Source: an uncultured Saprospiraceae bacterium | GTDB lineage: Bacteria > Bacteroidota > Bacteroidia > Chitinophagales > Saprospiraceae | NCBI GenBank assembly: GCA_937924495.1 | Contig: CALDSS010000023.1 | Span: 1 to 36,305 of the forward strand | DNA length: 36,305 bases | Direction: 5' to 3' | Part shown: piece after piece, positions 1 to 9,528 of the stretch | Position numbering within the stretch: the first letter of the stretch is position 1 | How the letters are laid out: every line of letters begins with the position of its first letter | Made by a program: the position numbers and the translations under genes | The notes under the pieces: model-generated | Database searches by the model: none | The model's input: the letters and a program-made list of their open reading frames with translations, nothing else | Told to the model about the DNA's origin: nothing

Positions 1-1122
1 TGCTTCTTCGAGTAGTATTTCTGTTTTAAAAAGAATAAAATCTTTTGCCCCTTTATCAATAAATTCCTGAAAAGCAGTCGCGCCAACTTTTTGCAAATAG
101 GAGTCAGGATCTTCTCCATCTGGAATCAGGGCGATGCGCACATTCAGGTCTGCTTCCAATGCTAAATCCAACCCCCGCAACGCCGCTTTAATACCTGCTT
201 TGTCCCCATCATAAATGATTTTTAGATTAGGAGTGAAGCGTTTGATGAGGCGCAATTGCTCTCGCGTCAAAGACGTTCCAGAAGAAGCCACTACATTTTC
301 AAAACCTGCCTGATGCAATGAAATTACATCTGTGTATCCTTCCACCAAGAGACATTCATCCAGTTTTGCGATGTTAGATTTCGCATGATAAATTCCAAAA
401 AGTGATTTACTTTTATTGTAAATATCAGTCTCTGGCGAGTTGATATATTTCGGAGCTTTTGTATTCTTTTTGAGTGTCCGTCCAGCAAATGCAATCGGTT
501 TTCCCGAAAGGTTGAAAATGGTAAACATCACGCGGTCGCGGAAGAAGTCTCGGTCATTTTTGGCCAACCCCAATTTCTCAAGCATTTCTTTTTTATGACC
601 TTCTTTATTGGCGTGTTGTAGAAAATTATTGACACCCGCTGGCGCATATCCAAGTGCAAATTTCTTTATCGTTTCCTCCCGAAAACCTCGACTTTTGAAA
701 TAACTCAGCCCAACGCTCTTCCCACTATCTGTTTCAAAAAGCTGATCTTGAAAGTATTTTTTTGCAAAATCATTAACCACAAAAAGGCTATCGCTCATCT
801 GTTGCGCTTGGCGCTCTTCAGGTGTCATTTCCTTTTCAATGATTTCGATATTGTACTTGGTGGCCAAGTATCGTATCGCTTCCACGAAAGAGAATTTCTC
901 ATGCTCCATCACGAAAGTGGTAGGGTTGCCCCCTTTTCCACAACCAAAACATTTGAATAGATTCTTGCCTGGCGAGACCACAAACGAGGGCGTTTTTTCA
1001 TTATGAAAAGGACACAGCCCTTTCATGTTAGACCCAGCTCGTTTGAGGGGCATGAAATCTTGTACCACATCTTCAATCTTTGCGGTATCGTATATTTCCT
1101 GTATGGTCTTCTGCGCAATCAT
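1..1122 (-). CDS. dnaG: DNA primase DnaG (N-terminal part, cut by window edge)
   Basis: Synthesises RNA primers on the lagging strand at the replication fork. The reverse-strand frame is open from an ATG at 1122 to base 1, giving 374 codons; the family is usually about 600-650 aa, so the C-terminal helicase-interacting part lies outside. Seen: a CHC2-type zinc finger with C37, H40, C58, C61; the primase N-terminal fold; a TOPRIM domain with EGYTD (E261), YDGDKAG (D305, D307) and a downstream DPD. The start is supported because the protein begins right before the usual primase N-terminus (MIAQKTIQEIYDTAKIEDVV). The divergent flank is non-coding and carries REP-like repeats. No frame breaks are seen. 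Identity is secure from motif order. Confidence 0.96.
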   Translation of the reverse strand, partial: MIAQKTIQEIYDTAKIEDVVQDFMPLKRAGSNMKGLCPFHNEKTPSFVVSPGKNLFKCFGCGKGGNPTTFVMEHEKFSFVEAIRYLATKYNIEIIEKEMTPEERQAQQMSDSLFVVNDFAKKYFQDQLFETDSGKSVGLSYFKSRGFREETIKKFALGYAPAGVNNFLQHANKEGHKKEMLEKLGLAKNDRDFFRDRVMFTIFNLSGKPIAFAGRTLKKNTKAPKYINSPETDIYNKSKSLFGIYHAKSNIAKLDECLLVEGYTDVISLHQAGFENVVASSGTSLTREQLRLIKRFTPNLKIIYDGDKAGIKAALRGLDLALEADLNVRIALIPDGEDPDSYLQKVGATAFQEFIDKGAKDFILFKTEILLEEA

Positions 1123-1146
1123 CTACAAACAAAGGTAAGAAAGAAA

Positions 1147-1280
1147 GTAGCACAGGCATCCCTGCCTGTGAAAATGTTTTCGTGAAAAAATTATCATAAA
1201 GGATTTCTAAATTTTAATAAGTCGAAAGCTGATCATTCTTGCTTATGCTCGGGCTTGCACAGGCAGGATGCCTGTGCTAC
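1147..1280. repeat. inverted pair of REP-like palindromes (BIME-like)
   Basis: The left unit at 1147-1170 reads GTAGCACAGGCATC then CCTGCCTGTG. The right unit at 1258-1280 is its reverse complement apart from one extra C in the left copy. Each unit is itself a palindrome (CAGGCA...TGCCTG), so each can fold alone and the two can also pair over an 87-bp spacer. This is the architecture of paired REP sequences mobilised by IS200-like REP-associated tyrosine transposases. No such transposase is in the window, so the class is inferred. Confidence 0.6.
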
Positions 1281-1354
1281 AATTAGAAACAAATTGAGGA
1301 TAGGTTATTGTTTTTCAAAAACGGTGGTATTTTTACTTTATACAACTACACACC

Positions 1355-1440
1355 ATGGAGAAAACGACTAAAAGGATTTTAAAAAGTGGCTGGAATATTT
1401 GCAGCAAGAAAGTTGGCAATTAGAACTCATTATTTGTTTA
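1355..1440 (+). pseudogene. decayed 5' fragment of a gene (WLEYLQQESWQ-type)
   Basis: An ATG at 1355 opens MEKTTKRILK. After a run of five A's the reading shifts by one base into KWLEYLQQESWQLELI, then hits TAG and TGA stops before 1450. One A missing from the run would restore a single frame for about 27 codons. The amphipathic W/L/E/Q-rich segment looks like a genuine protein start rather than random translation, possibly of a Bacteroidota membrane protein, but I cannot name the family with certainty. It may simply be chance. Confidence 0.3.
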
Positions 1441-1477
1441 TAGGAGCTTTGAAATTCCTTTTGTGAAGTATAATTGA

Positions 1478-3004
1478 TTACCGTTGCAAAGAGTAGAGAT
1501 AATAATTTTCATTCTTTAAATTATAACTGTTAAAAGTTTTCCAAAGCTGAGCAGTAGGGTAGCGGTTTTTATCCAATTGTTTAGGAGAAATAATGACAAT
1601 GCCACCCACATTTTTGAATTCAGCAAATATTTTCAATTCTTGCTCCGCTGGTAGATAGATTTTTTCTACCCATTTAAAATAAGAAAAAAGTTCACCATCC
1701 GGAAGAGCATAAAATTTACGATTGGCGTAACCAACGACAGGGGCTGCTTCAAATTTATTGATAGCCACAACTGGCACTTTCTCAGGTACTTTTTCTTTGA
1801 TAAAATCAGCAGCCAATTTCGCATTGGAGAATGGATGTCGATATTCTTTTTGCACGGCAAGTGCAGTGTATTTAATTTGGAAAAAGAAGATGCTGGTGAG
1901 GAAGAGTAGGGAGATTATATCCAGTGAAGTGGTGGGACGACTTTGAGCCATGCCACCACTGGCGGTTGCTTTCGTGGCACAACTCAAAGTCGTCCCACGA
2001 ATAAGGGTAGCTTTTGAAAAGTACAAATGCAATATCATCGTAAAAAAGATGAAAAACGTACCCCATTGCCGAACCCCACCAGTATAAATCGTTACCAAAA
2101 AAACAAAATATCCGCCAACGAAAAACAGCAAAGTCCAAAGCAGATTTTTCTCCTTTCGGAAAAAATGAATCAATCCGCCAAGCACTATCACACTCAAAAG
2201 CAATCCGAAATTCGAAACTCCAAAAACATTGGTATCGGGAATAGCGCCAATCCAAAAGGTATTCGCAAACATGCCCTGAAATCCTTTGAGTAGCGTATCG
2301 CCACTAAACGGCTCAGAAAGATAAGCTCTTGATAATTCTTCGCCACTACTTCTTGGATAAACAGAAAGGATGAAAACAGCTAAACCTGCCACTGCTCCAA
2401 GAGCAATATTCCTCAAATTTGAGTTTTGATAAAGCGCTTTTCTTTTTTCTAAAAAAAGATAAAAAATGAGCGCTCCAGCCATCATGACGGCGTAAACCTC
2501 TGTTTGGCAAAAGAGGAAGAAAAGCAGTGCCAGCCATTTCCAATTTTTTTCTGGTTTTTCAATTAAAGTGACAATGCCATAGCCCAATAGCATAACAAAA
2601 GCATAACCCCTACTCACCATTCCATACTCGAAAAAAGGATAATAGCTGAGGAGTAAAAGCACTTTTACCAAAAAAGGCATTTTCAACCTAAAAAAGAGCA
2701 AATAATAGACCCCCACCATGACGAGTGCATGTGCCAATTGGAGCAAAAATGGATCATTTGCTCCCGAAGAAAATAGAGTCCAAACTTTTAAATAAAAATA
2801 CCAAAGGCCAGGATGACCTTCGTAATAAAGAAAACCCGCCAATTCACCCCACCCCATGTCGCGAGCGACGAGCCACGCCTGCCACTCATCTTTCCAAAAT
2901 TCATGGTAAGAAAACTTAAACCATAAATAAATTACTATGAATACTGCGAAAACGAGGTATTCAACAACCTTAGGAACTTTAATTTCTGGAAGTTTAAAAG
3001 ACAT
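1478..3004 (-). CDS. GT-C type polytopic membrane glycosyltransferase-like protein
   Basis: A 508-aa protein with about 10-12 hydrophobic segments. The first helix (about 15-33) is followed by a loop carrying FWKDEWQAWL (D39, E40) and later EGHPGLWYF; an acidic pair in the first periplasmic loop is typical of GT-C/PMT-like enzymes that use polyprenyl-phosphate sugars. The C-terminal soluble portion (about 390-508) would be periplasmic. Residues 336-358 are encoded by an inserted palindromic element and sit in a loop between two hydrophobic helices. The gene diverges from the ATP-grasp gene with only 32 bp between starts. The sugar donor and acceptor cannot be told. The GT-C assignment rests on topology and the early acidic motif, not on a full domain match. 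Confidence 0.72.
   Translation of the reverse strand: MSFKLPEIKVPKVVEYLVFAVFIVIYLWFKFSYHEFWKDEWQAWLVARDMGWGELAGFLYYEGHPGLWYFYLKVWTLFSSGANDPFLLQLAHALVMVGVYYLLFFRLKMPFLVKVLLLLSYYPFFEYGMVSRGYAFVMLLGYGIVTLIEKPEKNWKWLALLFFLFCQTEVYAVMMAGALIFYLFLEKRKALYQNSNLRNIALGAVAGLAVFILSVYPRSSGEELSRAYLSEPFSGDTLLKGFQGMFANTFWIGAIPDTNVFGVSNFGLLLSVIVLGGLIHFFRKEKNLLWTLLFFVGGYFVFLVTIYTGGVRQWGTFFIFFTMILHLYFSKATLIRGTTLSCATKATASGGMAQSRPTTSLDIISLLFLTSIFFFQIKYTALAVQKEYRHPFSNAKLAADFIKEKVPEKVPVVAINKFEAAPVVGYANRKFYALPDGELFSYFKWVEKIYLPAEQELKIFAEFKNVGGIVIISPKQLDKNRYPTAQLWKTFNSYNLKNENYYLYSLQR
1932..1998. repeat. 67-bp palindromic element inserted in frame in a coding sequence
   Basis: Perfect 16-bp arms GTGGGACGACTTTGAG (1932-1947) and CTCAAAGTCGTCCCAC (1983-1998) enclose a 35-base centre with a further TGCCAC...GTGGCA pairing. 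On the minus strand it is read through without a stop, giving about 23 residues rich in Thr, Ser, Ala and Gly (336-358 of the host protein). This composition is unlike the hydrophobic host sequence on both sides. The arrangement resembles Rickettsia palindromic elements that add peptides to proteins; that comparison is inference. Confidence 0.75.
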
Positions 3005-3036
3005 GTAGTAGTCAGGTAAATTCTAAAGTTAAAGGT

Positions 3037-4245
3037 ATGAATTTCAGCTATTCTGAAGGGCAGTTCGTAGAAAAACCGAAAATAATGACCATATTCTCAA
3101 CCGAAAGTCCTTTTTTTGTGTCTCTATTTCATCAAAAAGCATACGTTGTGAGCTCCACTACCCGAAGGATTGAAGATGCAAAAACGACTGAGCAACATGA
3201 GGAGTCGTTTTTAAAAAAAATACTCGATTGGGAAAAATTGCCTAACGGGGTGTTTCTCTTACCACTCATTGTTTGGGGTATTTTTAGAACCTTAAAGTCT
3301 GGAACGCTTTGGACGATGAGTACCGCTAACCCAGGTCTTACTTTTGGTGGCTTTTTTGGTTTTCCAAAAACCGATGCCTACAAAGTGCTGCCTCCAGAAT
3401 CTTACCCAACAACTGTTTTAATTAAGCCTGGAACTGATTTCGAAACGGCTTTTTCTACGATAAAAGAAGCAGGTTTAGAGTTTCCTTTTGTAGTGAAACC
3501 AGATGGTGGAATGGTCGGATTGTTGGTGCGAGTGGTGGAAGATGAAGCTGCTTTGCGCAAATATCACCATTTGGTGCAAGCAGATTGGATGGCTCAAAAA
3601 ATGGTGGATTATCAAACAGAAGTGGGTGTCTTTTATGTCCGTCATCCAAATGAGGAGAAAGGGCAAATCGTTGGTTTGAACCAAAAAGTGCCTTTGTCTG
3701 TACTTGGAGATGGATCTTCTACGATTGGTGAATTGGTAAAAAGCAATGAGCGAACTATCCCATTCGAAAACGAAATTTTTGAAAAACAGGAAAAGAACTG
3801 GAATTATGTGCCTGCCAAGGGTGAATTTTTTCAACTCATTTTCACTGGCAATAGAAAAAATGGAGCTCGTTTAGTTACGCAAGATGATAAAATTGATGAT
3901 GACTTGATTGCGATTCTTGATGAATGGAGTCATTATAAAGAAGGGATTTTCTATGGTCGATATGATATTAAATGCGAATCATTGGAGAGTTTGAAAAGAG
4001 GAGAGAATTATGCGATTCTTGAATTTAATGGCGTACACTCAGGGTATGGGCATTTGTATCATTGTGGTAAAAAACCAGGCGAAGTTTACAAAGAAATAAA
4101 ACGACTTTGGAATCTGCTTTATGACATTTCGATTACGCATCATAAAAACGGAGAGCCTTATATTTCCTTTTTTGGAGGTTGGAAATTTATTTTCGATTCT
4201 CTTAAAACTTTCAAGAAATTAGGAAAGTGGGAAAAAGAGCTGTGA
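3037..4245 (+). CDS. ATP-grasp superfamily protein
   Basis: A 402-aa cytoplasmic protein. The central and C-terminal parts match the ATP-grasp fold: FVVKPDGGMVG (K154, ATP-binding strand and Gly-rich loop), a KVPLSVLGDGSSTIGELV segment like those in cyanophycin synthetase and D-Ala-D-Ala ligase-like enzymes, GRYDIK (D310) and AILEFNG (E329, N331) as the Mg-binding acidic pair. It would join a carboxylate to an amine or similar nucleophile using ATP; the substrates are unknown. The usual glycine-rich ending after the ExN motif is replaced by VHSGYGH. The N-terminal ~100 residues are poorly recognisable. A second in-frame ATG at 3085 would leave a longer promoter space from the divergent gene and may be the true start. 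Confidence 0.78.
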   Translation: MNFSYSEGQFVEKPKIMTIFSTESPFFVSLFHQKAYVVSSTTRRIEDAKTTEQHEESFLKKILDWEKLPNGVFLLPLIVWGIFRTLKSGTLWTMSTANPGLTFGGFFGFPKTDAYKVLPPESYPTTVLIKPGTDFETAFSTIKEAGLEFPFVVKPDGGMVGLLVRVVEDEAALRKYHHLVQADWMAQKMVDYQTEVGVFYVRHPNEEKGQIVGLNQKVPLSVLGDGSSTIGELVKSNERTIPFENEIFEKQEKNWNYVPAKGEFFQLIFTGNRKNGARLVTQDDKIDDDLIAILDEWSHYKEGIFYGRYDIKCESLESLKRGENYAILEFNGVHSGYGHLYHCGKKPGEVYKEIKRLWNLLYDISITHHKNGEPYISFFGGWKFIFDSLKTFKKLGKWEKEL

Positions 4246-5191: not shown

Positions 5192-7327
5192 ATGAGTAAA
5201 CTTACTTCTGCTGCGGTAGCTGTGCTATCGCTATCAATTCTTTTTTCTTATCAAAGTAATCAACAGGCCAGAGTCTCCAATGATGATGTTGGAGCCATTA
5301 CCGTTACAGCCATGATGGTGGCAGACAATGACAACGATGGTTTTGATGATACTGTTGATTGTGACGATAATGATCCTTTAGTTACCGTGGGGCCATTATG
5401 GTTTGAAGATGCCGATGGAGATGGATTTGGAAATGCTGCTGTTTCGATGAATGCATGCACGATGCCTATGGGTTTTGCAGATAACGATTTGGATTGTGAT
5501 GATGGCGATTTTGATGTAAAACCAACTGGAGTGGAAATATGCAACGGAATTGATGATGATTGTGATGGAGAAATTGATGAATTTGCAACGGACGCTTCCA
5601 CTTGGTACCGCGATGCTGATAATGATGGGTTTGGCGATCTGAATGACATACAAGTTTCTTGTAACCAACCAGAAGGCTATGTGGATAATTTTGAAGATTG
5701 TAATGACTCTGAACCTGGGCTAAATCCTAATACAATTTGGTATGGTGATTTTGATGGTGATGGCTATGGTAATCCAAATAGTTCACAAACAGGCTGCGAC
5801 CTGTCTGGTGCTGGTTTTGTTTTGAATGATCAAGACTGTAACGACAATATTGGAGCTATCAATCCAGGTGCATTAGATGTTTGTGATGGTTTTGATAATG
5901 ACTGCGACGGCCTAGTTGATAATGATGCCTCACTTTGGCCGACTTGGTTTGCGGATTCGGATGGCGATGGATTTGGTGATGCAAATTCTACGACTCAAGC
6001 TTGTGTAATGCCATTGGGCTATACAGATAACGATTTGGATTGTGATGATGGCGATTTTGATGTAAAACCAACTGGAGTGGAAATATGTAACGGAATTGAT
6101 GACGATTGCGACGGAGAAATTGATGAATTTGCAACAGACGCTTCCACCTGGTACCGTGATGCTGATAATGATGGGTTTGGCGATCTGAATGATATACGAG
6201 TTTCTTGTAACCAGCCAGAAGGCTATGTTGCCGACAATACCGACTGTAATGATGGCGATGCAAGCATCAATCCTAATACAATTTGGTACACAGATATTGA
6301 CGGAGATGGATTTGGTAACCCGAATAATTCATTAGCTGCTTGTGATTTGTCTAATGCTGGCTATGTTTTGAATGCTGACGATTGTAATGACAATGCAGGT
6401 ACTGTTAACCCAAATGCACCAGAGATCTGCGATGGAATCGATAACAATTGTGATGGAAATATAGATGAAGGCTTTGATCAAGACGGCGACGGAGTCACGA
6501 CTTGTGCAGGTGACTGTGACGATACTGATGCAACAGTTTATCCAAATGCACCAGAAATTTGCGATGGCTTAGATAATGATTGTGATGGAGTGATTGATAC
6601 TCCAAGCTGTGGAGGAGGCAATGATCAAGACGGAGATGGTGTGCCAGATGGTTCTGATAATTGCCCAAATACCCCTAATGCTGGTCAGGCTGATGCAGAC
6701 TGTGACGGAGTAGGTGATGTATGTGATCAATGGGATGGTTGTGATGATTCTTTAGATTCAGACGGAGACGGAATACCCGATTGTATAGACGAAGATGAAC
6801 TGGATAATTGGGAATGTAGCTCTAATGGAAAGAAAGCCTATTTCTGTAAAAATGGAGTCACCAGATGCAAAAATAAAAACAGCATAAATGGGCAGTTGCA
6901 GAATGGAGGTTATATTGGAGAATGTGGGTGGTCGTATTGTTCTTCAAGAGTAGCTGTTGACGGAGAAGCGAAAAAGATAGAAGAGGGACATAATGTTTTG
7001 GAATTGGAGGTAGAGCATCCTTCTACTGAAATTTTTGAAGAACAATTTTTAGTTGATTTGAATACTCCTCTTTTGGATTATGAAATATTTCCTAATCCAG
7101 CTCAGTCAGAAATTAATCTGAAATTGGATAGTTATTTTGAAGAGGAAGTAAATGTTCAGATTTTCAACCAATTGGGTCAAATGGTATTATTTGTTCCAAA
7201 TCAAATAGTAAATGATGCCAACTTGCGAATTGATTTGCCAAGTGGAAAAATGCCAGATGGATTATACTCCTTGGCTGTTATTTCAAATGGAGAAATCAAA
7301 ACCAAGCAATTTGTGGTAAGACGATAA
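5192..7327 (+). CDS. secreted MopE-like/thrombospondin-3 repeat protein with T9SS sorting domain
   Basis: A 711-aa exported protein. After a short hydrophobic leader, residues ~45-475 are made of Asp/Cys-rich repeats of two alternating kinds: WYxDxDGDGFGN and ICDGIDNDCDGxID/DCND, the putative metal-binding motif of MopE-type proteins. Residues ~478-545 are thrombospondin type 3 Ca-binding repeats (DxDGDGVPDGSDNCPNT). A Cys-rich stretch follows (~550-590), then a T9SS C-terminal sorting domain from IFPNP (~630) ending in LYSLAVIS...KQFVVRR. Expected to be exported by Sec, moved across the outer membrane by T9SS, and rigidified by Ca2+. A 182-residue unit is duplicated inside it. The next gene is independent because a strong terminator follows. 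Confidence 0.88.
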   Translation: MSKLTSAAVAVLSLSILFSYQSNQQARVSNDDVGAITVTAMMVADNDNDGFDDTVDCDDNDPLVTVGPLWFEDADGDGFGNAAVSMNACTMPMGFADNDLDCDDGDFDVKPTGVEICNGIDDDCDGEIDEFATDASTWYRDADNDGFGDLNDIQVSCNQPEGYVDNFEDCNDSEPGLNPNTIWYGDFDGDGYGNPNSSQTGCDLSGAGFVLNDQDCNDNIGAINPGALDVCDGFDNDCDGLVDNDASLWPTWFADSDGDGFGDANSTTQACVMPLGYTDNDLDCDDGDFDVKPTGVEICNGIDDDCDGEIDEFATDASTWYRDADNDGFGDLNDIRVSCNQPEGYVADNTDCNDGDASINPNTIWYTDIDGDGFGNPNNSLAACDLSNAGYVLNADDCNDNAGTVNPNAPEICDGIDNNCDGNIDEGFDQDGDGVTTCAGDCDDTDATVYPNAPEICDGLDNDCDGVIDTPSCGGGNDQDGDGVPDGSDNCPNTPNAGQADADCDGVGDVCDQWDGCDDSLDSDGDGIPDCIDEDELDNWECSSNGKKAYFCKNGVTRCKNKNSINGQLQNGGYIGECGWSYCSSRVAVDGEAKKIEEGHNVLELEVEHPSTEIFEEQFLVDLNTPLLDYEIFPNPAQSEINLKLDSYFEEEVNVQIFNQLGQMVLFVPNQIVNDANLRIDLPSGKMPDGLYSLAVISNGEIKTKQFVVRR
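5480..5682 (+). repeat. internal direct repeat, copy 1
   Basis: 203 bp matching 6026-6228 with 10 mismatches, offset 546 bp (exactly 182 codons). It encodes one MopE-like module within the secreted protein. Confidence 0.9.
6026..6228 (+). repeat. internal direct repeat, copy 2
   Basis: Second copy of 5480-5682. Nine of the ten differences are synonymous; the tenth changes Gln (CAA) to Arg (CGA). Confidence 0.9.
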
Positions 7328-8137: not shown

Positions 8138-8821
8138 TTAGAGTCCTTCGATGAGTGCCAACATGGATTTAGAGCGGACGTACATCAAATCAGCGTGGTT
8201 TTCTTTTTTTGCCTTAAACTTGTCAAGCATTTTTTTCTTGATTTCTGGCCCCATATAGTCAGGAGAGATGATATTAGCTGTTCTGGCTAAATTTTCAAAA
8301 TTCTTGAAATTTTTAAGGTATCCCTTCTTGGATAAAAATAGAAGAACTGCTTCGTCAAACCTTTGTTCAACAGCCCAAAGATCTACATACCCCTCTTCGT
8401 TTACAAGGTCGTTCCAATCGATTATTCTGCGGGCAAATTGAGCAGGTAATAACCAATAGTTTGTGATTTTATAATAAAGTGCCTTCCCACTTTCGGCTTC
8501 ACCGGTGAGGTTGTTCAATTCCTCAAAGAATTTTTTGTCGGTAGAATGTAAACGGTCAAATGCGTTAATAAATCGTTTAGTTACCTTCTTGCTCTCATAC
8601 CTTAAAGATTTTACTTTTTCCGAGGAGTATTTTATGTTGTACTTCTTGAAAAACTGAAGTTTGTACTGCCACCGCAAGTCATCGGTTGTATTAAACGAAT
8701 AAAATTCAGTTAGTATTTGTCCACCTTCTTTTAGGTATGAGGCGTCAACCATGTTAAGATTTTGGCCGAAGCCCAAAGTGCTGAAGAGTAGAATAAAAGC
8801 GAGATGAAATAAATATCTCAT
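8138..8821 (-). CDS. exported protein of unknown function, intact tandem paralogue
   Basis: A 227-aa protein with a signal peptide (MRYLFHLAFILLFSTLGFGQ). The mature part is mostly helical and charged, with conserved blocks shared with the neighbouring copy: SYLKEG, YKLQFFKK, FFEELNNLTGEAESGKALYYKI.NYW.LPAQ, RFDEAVL, YVRSKSMLALIE. No catalytic motif is recognised. Its start is 11 bp downstream of the stop of the broken paralogue, so the two were probably one transcript. It is the second gene of a tandem duplication and the one that still has a full frame. Confidence 0.82.
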   Translation of the reverse strand: MRYLFHLAFILLFSTLGFGQNLNMVDASYLKEGGQILTEFYSFNTTDDLRWQYKLQFFKKYNIKYSSEKVKSLRYESKKVTKRFINAFDRLHSTDKKFFEELNNLTGEAESGKALYYKITNYWLLPAQFARRIIDWNDLVNEEGYVDLWAVEQRFDEAVLLFLSKKGYLKNFKNFENLARTANIISPDYMGPEIKKKMLDKFKAKKENHADLMYVRSKSMLALIEGL

Positions 8822-8832
8822 ATGCGTTTTGG

Positions 8833-9528
8833 TTATAGTCGTTCAATTAAATTTAGCATCGATTTGGAGCGATAGTATAGAAAGTCAGGGAAGCCTTCAA
8901 GCTCGGTTAGTTCGTCATTTAACATTTTTGGGCGGTTTTTCTCTGACATGAAATTAGGAGAAGTCTCATAAATCGTTTTCACCAGTTTTTCAAAGTCCTT
9001 AAATTTTCTCAATTTCTCGCTCTTAGCCAAAAAATAAAGGACACTTTCGTCAAACCTTTCTTCAATTTTTCGCCAATACTCTTTATCTGTATCCTCATCA
9101 TTGATAATGTCTCTGTAATCGGTCATTGTACGACTTGATTGGGCAGGTAATACCCAATAATTTTGGATTTTATAGTAAAGTGCTTTTCCACTTTCAGCTT
9201 CACCCGTAAGCTCGTTTAGCTGTTCGAAAAATGCTTGGTTGTCTGAAGGCAATCAATCATAAGCATTGAGGTATCTTTTTTCTACCACTTTATTTCTGAA
9301 GCGTTTAATTTTAGTTTTTCCACAGCAAAAGCATTTTTTTGAATTAAACTTCCTGAAAAACTGAAGTTTATATTCTTTAGGATACACGTTGTTCTTATCA
9401 AATTCGTAAAATTCAGAAAGAACTCGCTCGCCTTCTTTTAGGTATGAAGAATCAATCTTGTGAAGATTTTGACCGAAGCCAAAAGTGCTGAAGAGTAAAA
9501 TAAAAGTAAAATGAAATAGATATTTCAT
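8833..9528 (-). pseudogene. tandem paralogue interrupted by an in-frame TGA
   Basis: Same family as the gene at 8138-8821, with signal peptide MKYLFHFTFILLFSTFGFGQ. The frame runs from the ATG at 9528, meets a TGA at 9253-9255 after ...KRYLNAYD, and resumes in the same frame with LPSDNQAFFEQLNELTGE to a stop at 8833. The intact copy has Arg at the matching position (INAFD-R-LHSTD), so a CGA to TGA change is the simplest explanation. Apart from this codon the gene looks whole, about 231 codons. A Cys cluster (KCFCCGK) in the N-terminal half is not present in the sibling. Sequencing error or readthrough remain possible. Confidence 0.75.

Follow-up and report, generated by a model that had tools for sequence, protein, structure and literature searches.

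A 67-bp inverted REP doublet read in frame within a predicted membrane-protein gene of an uncultured Saprospiraceae bacterium

The locus and the 67-bp element

The window, by which we mean the whole stretch of 36,305 nucleotides that was analyzed from the genome of an uncultured Saprospiraceae bacterium (G000), carries a gene for a predicted membrane protein in which a short inverted element is read in frame. The features of this locus are the following.

1478..3004, minus strand: host gene, predicted polytopic membrane protein of 508 aa, GT-C-like (an unconfirmed label)
1932..1998, minus strand: complete REP doublet (REPIN), 67 bp, in frame in ORF 1478-3004 and encoding residues 336-358
1932..1956, plus strand: REP unit of the Z type, flanks TG/GTGG ... 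CCAC/CA (GAGCCATGCCAC), with a decayed inner half and no fold alone
1957..1973, unstranded: spacer of 17 bp separating the REP units (13-18 bp within the family)
1974..1998, minus strand: REP unit of the Y type, flanks TC/GTGG ... CCAC/GA, folding as ((((.((((((...)))))).)))) with an internal G.G mismatch as in the family
1146..1284, unstranded: separate REP doublet of another family, GTAG-tagged (GTAGCACAGGCATCCCTGCCTGTG / GCACAGGCAGGATGCCTGTGCTAC), not part of the 67-bp element

Positions 1932-1998, read directly, run GTGGGACGACTTTGAG CCATGCCACCACTGGCGGTTGCTTTCGTGGCACAA CTCAAAGTCGTCCCAC, and a repeat finder returned outer arms that match perfectly over 16 nt and, when extended to 25 nt, are 88% complementary, leaving a center of 17 nt, so that both the direct read and the repeat finder bear out an earlier note that had described a 67-bp unit with perfect 16-bp arms. 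The element is composed of two palindromes of about 25 nt (GTGGGACGACTTnGAGTCGTGCCAC) placed face to face across 17 bp. Among arm pairs with a loop of at most 60 nt, this is the window's one perfect 16-bp case, and 100 first-order Markov controls produced none. The G+C content of the element is 58%, compared with 38% for the window. Because two inverted REP palindromes stand across a spacer, either single strand can fold into one long hairpin; as single-stranded DNA the 67-mer has folding energies of -24.1 and -25.9 kcal/mol on its two strands (z = -6.7 and -8.3), values reached by none of 200 shuffles. The left unit is decayed, and this copy may for that reason no longer be mobile.

Within the 508-aa predicted membrane protein the element reads as residues 336-358 (RGTTLSCATKATASGGMAQSRPT), 23 aa in all, between the hydrophobic segments 317-335 and 359-384. 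The same note had claimed that the frame stays open and that these residues occupy a loop between two hydrophobic helices, a placement with which the ORF map and the predicted hydropathy agree. The host protein (P0001) matched no family in Pfam or NCBIfam, and its label as a GT-C glycosyltransferase consequently derives solely from a multi-helix hydropathy profile and a conserved WKDEWQAW motif. An AlphaFold model from a two-row alignment had a mean pLDDT of 37, too low for structural reading. The protein is 78-79% identical to its orthologues in two congeneric genomes (G003 and G004), with dN of about 0.15 and dS of 1.4-1.9 (dS being near saturation), and on these comparative grounds the gene is under purifying constraint. 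The encoded Thr/Ser/Ala/Gly-rich peptide itself is most likely neutral ballast.

The window holds further repeats. The GTAG-tagged doublet at 1146-1284 lies between a 374-aa minus-strand ORF (1-1122) and the membrane-protein gene. A 284-bp part of a gene for a Cys/Asp-rich repeat protein is duplicated at 87% identity (5399-5682 and 5945-6228), and two direct repeats 707 bp apart (8623-8821 and 9330-9528; 133 nt at 80% and 43 nt at 77%) probably represent a duplicated small gene region.

The repeat family and its in-frame copies

A search of the whole genome G000 with the 16-nt arm gave 15 approximate matches, compared with 0 for the reversed control, and related copies were recovered from three congeners; the second copy in the genome and the occurrences in relatives that the earlier note had proposed to look for are thus both present. 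Most copies of the family, hereafter family A (GTGGGACGACTT palindromes), are 25-nt units (GTGGGACGACTTnGAGTCGTGCCAC) in which positions 5 and 21 form a conserved G.G mismatch, and most stand either as solo palindromes or in arrangements other than the 67-bp doublet. Our counts come from searches and from the stretches around matches, the census of units from the fetched stretches alone. By that census G000 has about 26 units, spread over 16 places, and G002, G003, and G004 have about 22, 16, and 10, numbers that are lower bounds because the congeneric genomes are draft MAGs, 64-87% complete. With a covariance model the family and its close relatives were detected in these four of the six genomes of the genus, and G006, a genome of another genus, gave only a related palindrome. 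Exact matches were confined to one genus among 36 genera sampled (41 genomes), occurred only in Saprospiraceae MAGs within a collection of 84,980 species, and were lacking in an exact scan of viral contigs.

The build of the units is regular. Nearly every family A unit begins with GTGG at its 5' end and closes with CCAC at its 3' end, and in the fetched loci TC or TG precedes the GTGG foot. Each of the 12 convergent doublets examined, the window element included, combines one TC-flanked and one TG-flanked unit across a spacer of 13-18 bp (permutation p = 0.0013). Across related palindromes, compensatory changes were seen at 7 of 10 stem pairs, a value that none of 500 shuffles equaled and that slid controls fell far short of; this result leans towards structure to begin with, because the alignment was fitted to the model and some palindromes were read on both strands.

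Besides the membrane protein, at least five other genes carry the family in frame, deep inside homologous proteins. The insertions are listed here, with the host proteins named from profile matches.

VimE/WbmS-like deacetylase: a single unit in G000, two units in G003, and in G004 one unit with a second that is decayed; not seen in any of the 9 aligned orthologues of other genomes
QTMAN, G000: two units, placed after the N-terminal domain (which ends at residue 175) and before the glycosyltransferase domain (from residue 215); the orthologues aligned lack them
NadR-like AAA_28 protein, G000: family unit in frame
Molybdopterin oxidoreductase, G002: variant unit between two domains, in frame
MBL-fold protein, G003: family unit in frame

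The frame used varies by gene, giving GTTxSRPT, WHDSKSSH, or VARLxVVP, as would be expected since most frames are without stops (5 of 6 in the TTTG unit and 6 of 6 in the TTGG unit). We left out of the intragenic count those units that sit at the N-terminal edge of an ORF and are likely upstream of its true start (L153, L169, L170, L175, and L194), as well as two units in probably spurious ORFs (L156 and L159). Of the 16 sites in G000, about 4 lie deep inside genes and the majority lie outside long ORFs; this share is far below that of random insertion in a gene-dense genome and indicates that the family avoids coding sequence overall. Taken together, the dispersed copies, the in-frame copies in several genes, and their absence from orthologues fit the proposal of a mobile repeat that occurs between genes and is tolerated in proteins. 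The N-terminal third of the VimE-like ORF (L172, L190) has a second loop in which another palindrome family (GTGCTTCTCGGCTTCGCTCGAAGTAC) is read in frame, with several copies in the G003 deacetylase (YFERSREAQK...YSERSRREQK).

Orthologous sites and RAYT genes

In the G004 orthologue, which is 79% identical, the insert is absent and YFSK runs straight to LDYFQL (YFSK-KEEKKLDYFQL), so that the net addition in the gene of the window relative to G004 is about 72 bp, with the frame kept. The orthologues of G007 and G018 are likewise without residues 336-358, so that the outcome which the earlier note had named as speaking against an insertion, the same residues in the orthologues of all distant relatives, is not seen. 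Comparison with the orthologues yielded no definable insertion junction or target-site duplication, because the loop is too diverged. The G003 orthologue is occupied in the same loop by a doublet of a different palindrome family (GTCGGACGGCTnnnAGCCGGCAGAC, family B) and, 17 nt beyond it, by one unit of family A, all in frame. Family B is distinct from family A and also forms doublets between genes, in both G003 and G004.

The inserts of G000 and G003 could descend from one ancestral insertion that was subsequently lost in G004, rather than from two independent ones. They share the same loop to within a few nucleotides, the same frame, and the same 25-17-25 layout, and 40 of 67 positions are identical; set against this, the spacers of the two doublets agree at only 8 of 17 positions, GTCGGACGGCTnnnAGCCGGCAGAC belongs to a separate family with intergenic doublets elsewhere, and G003 and G004 are the closest relatives (90% identical) and yet the G004 site is empty. 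We regard a single insertion as unlikely and favor independent insertions in one permissive loop, on account of the intergenic doublets of family B and the 8 of 17 shared spacer positions. More doubtful still is the broader proposition that several REP families of the genus enter the same protein loops repeatedly, independently, and in frame, possibly through a site bias or selection for the peptides. Repeated loop occupancy is seen in the membrane protein, whose loop holds a doublet of family A in G000 and, in G003, a doublet of family B together with a single family A unit, and in the VimE-like deacetylase, where one site has one to two units of family A and a second loop has another palindrome family, and since several families are found in the same loops, REP accretion may be a real source of change in loop length.

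A transposase association was seen in one congener. At G002:C76, units of family A lie on both sides of a decayed RAYT gene, which was found by a RAYT alignment search and not by PF01797; its N-terminus and C-terminus are 50% and 54% identical to the RAYT L131 (E = 3e-10 and 4e-16), and the middle part with the HuH motif is gone. L131 in turn matches the NCBIfam model REP_Tyr_transpos at E = 3e-11, which is below the curated cut-off. No intact RAYT flanked by family A was found in any genome examined, these being incomplete MAGs (64-87%), and PF01797 searches of G000 and five congeners gave no transposase gene framed by family A and several framed by other families. The RAYT genes of G000 so framed have palindromes of the families GTAGCACAGGCAT..., GTCCTGTCAAGCCCC..., and CTGAGGCGGTCACTTCC..., of which the GTAGCACAGGCAT... 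family also occurs in the window at 1146-1284.

Several neighboring palindromes were noted alongside. Those at 1146-1284 also flank an intact RAYT at G000:C98:13453-14013 (L027), and the RAYT at G000:C98:3246-3911 (L131 / L262) has CTGAGGCGGTCACTTCCTGTGACCTCCTCAG palindromes, another REP family of G000, on both sides. RAYT genes lie near the orthologues of the host gene as well, about 1.5 kb off in G003 and less than 0.1 kb off in G004 (L075 543-1220, L071 2-460), and in G003 inverted palindromes (TCGCACTCGGCTGGAGCCGAGCGCGA) stand upstream of that RAYT gene. The palindromes of G006 that the covariance model scored (GTCKGACGGCTTTGAGCCGTCKGAC) were rejected as a candidate, being absent at all G006 RAYT loci examined.

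Origin of the element and comparison with known systems

We consider it highly probable that the 67-bp element is a double-foot GTGG...CCAC REPIN that a RAYT presumably mobilized in trans and that the loop, being permissive, tolerates. This reading joins the doublet architecture, the other copies, the empty site, the in-frame insertions in unrelated genes, and the RAYT remnant of a congener, and the repeat has the marks of a REP/REPIN family, namely a short dispersed palindrome with a GTGG foot that forms spaced inverted doublets and lies mostly outside coding sequence. In the proposed mechanism the REPIN would spread as a non-autonomous single-stranded hairpin that a tyrosine HuH transposase (RAYT) would cut and join, in trans, at the GTGG feet; given the G002 remnant flanked by family units, we infer that movement by a RAYT is the best-supported mechanism. 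The element would have entered the membrane-protein gene once in the lineage of the window, and it would have been kept because most frames are free of stops, because an addition of about 72 bp keeps the frame, and because the loop between the helices is fast-evolving.

A length of 67 bp, perfect 16-bp terminal inverted arms, and dispersed copies would also suit a MITE whose arms are terminal inverted repeats (TIRs) moved by a classical DDE insertion sequence. Most copies, however, are solo 25-nt palindromes or other arrangements that TIR MITEs do not produce, the arms are palindromes in their own right and have a mismatch conserved inside them, and the sole transposase gene found flanked by family units is a RAYT (HuH) remnant, as recovered by transposase searches aimed at RAYT; such an origin is accordingly very unlikely. 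A slimmer chance again attaches to a protein-coding palindrome family of its own kind, resembling the Rickettsia RPEs and selected for insertion into proteins rather than being an ordinary REP. Six or more unrelated genes with copies in frame, the use of most available frames, and the repeated build-up in the same loops of sister species speak in its favor, but with about 4 of 16 G000 sites deep in genes coding sequence is avoided and not preferred, and the element is built as a REP doublet. The likeness to RPEs that had been drawn from the sequence alone is thus retained as regards behavior, since the repeat is dispersed, lies in intergenic DNA as well as in frame within several genes, and is absent from orthologues, and is given up as regards structure, which is a REP doublet and not an RPE.

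The probability that the element is a native part of the gene, that is, a lineage-specific loop palindromic by chance or serving, for example, as an RNA or DNA regulatory hairpin, is practically nil. In its favor, the element keeps the reading frame, and a strong hairpin is predicted for the mRNA-sense strand (by DNA parameters); the same sequence, however, is found elsewhere between and inside unrelated genes, the sister orthologues are without the insert, and Rfam gave no match at window positions 1-4000. Copies at other sites and the empty site of the orthologue refute the native-loop reading.

If the REPIN reading is correct, the locus would be an instance of a RAYT-type REP family that writes itself into the proteins of uncultured Bacteroidota, where sister species offer sites both with and without the insert. 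Orthologues with 0, 1, 2, or 3 REP units in one loop form a natural series in which the cost and fate of REP-encoded peptides are measurable. Annotators should be cautious in that stretches such as GTTxSRPT, WHDSKSSH, and VARLxVVP are translated repeats and not conserved domains.

Among known systems, the TnpAREP subclass 2.4 is abundant in Bacteroidetes and is associated with double-foot REPs that have 5' GT[AG]G and 3' C[TC]AC, with in-frame REP insertions in genes (PMC6006769). Family A is alike in having GT[AG]G as its 5' foot and, as the reverse complement, C[TC]AC as its 3' foot; whereas that paper stresses insertions in tnpAREP genes, the host genes here are unrelated, and family A has a RAYT remnant without the HuH region and no intact cognate that we found. 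The REPINs or BIMEs (PMC3116915) share with it inverted doublets at a fixed spacing that form one hairpin and solo units as probable remnants, and the RAYT gene that such families frame has as its counterpart here the decayed one of G002; they differ in having hundreds of copies where we count dozens, in that the present doublet lies inside a coding gene, and in that the Saprospiraceae sequence is unlike the Pseudomonas and E. coli families. The RPEs of Rickettsia (PMC2229807) are likewise palindromic mobile repeats that are fused in frame in protein genes and also lie between genes, but their units measure 105-146 bp, as opposed to a 25-nt REP and a 67-bp doublet here, and for this reason we do not file the element as an RPE.

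A close parallel for the coding copies is provided by REPs described in many genes across many bacteria, over half of them in dimers or groups, which encode 20-30 aa; in Xanthomonas, orthologous recB genes hold REPs that differ from one another at nearly the same position (PMC3733652). These intragenic GTAG/CGTC REPs have in common with the present case in-frame dimers of 20-30 aa and different REPs at one orthologous site, while the named cases are mainly from Proteobacteria and O. terrae and ours is GTGG-footed and from an uncultured Saprospiraceae genus. The earlier expectation that such behavior is not well described in Bacteroidota is weakened by these reports of in-frame REPs (PMC3733652), including a RAYT subclass abundant in Bacteroidetes (PMC6006769). 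We found no paper on REPs in Saprospiraceae in a literature with limited coverage of subscription journals. In-frame intragenic REPs as such are already known, and the present case adds as new a family, a host among the Saprospiraceae, and a series of sites that are filled in some orthologues and empty in others.
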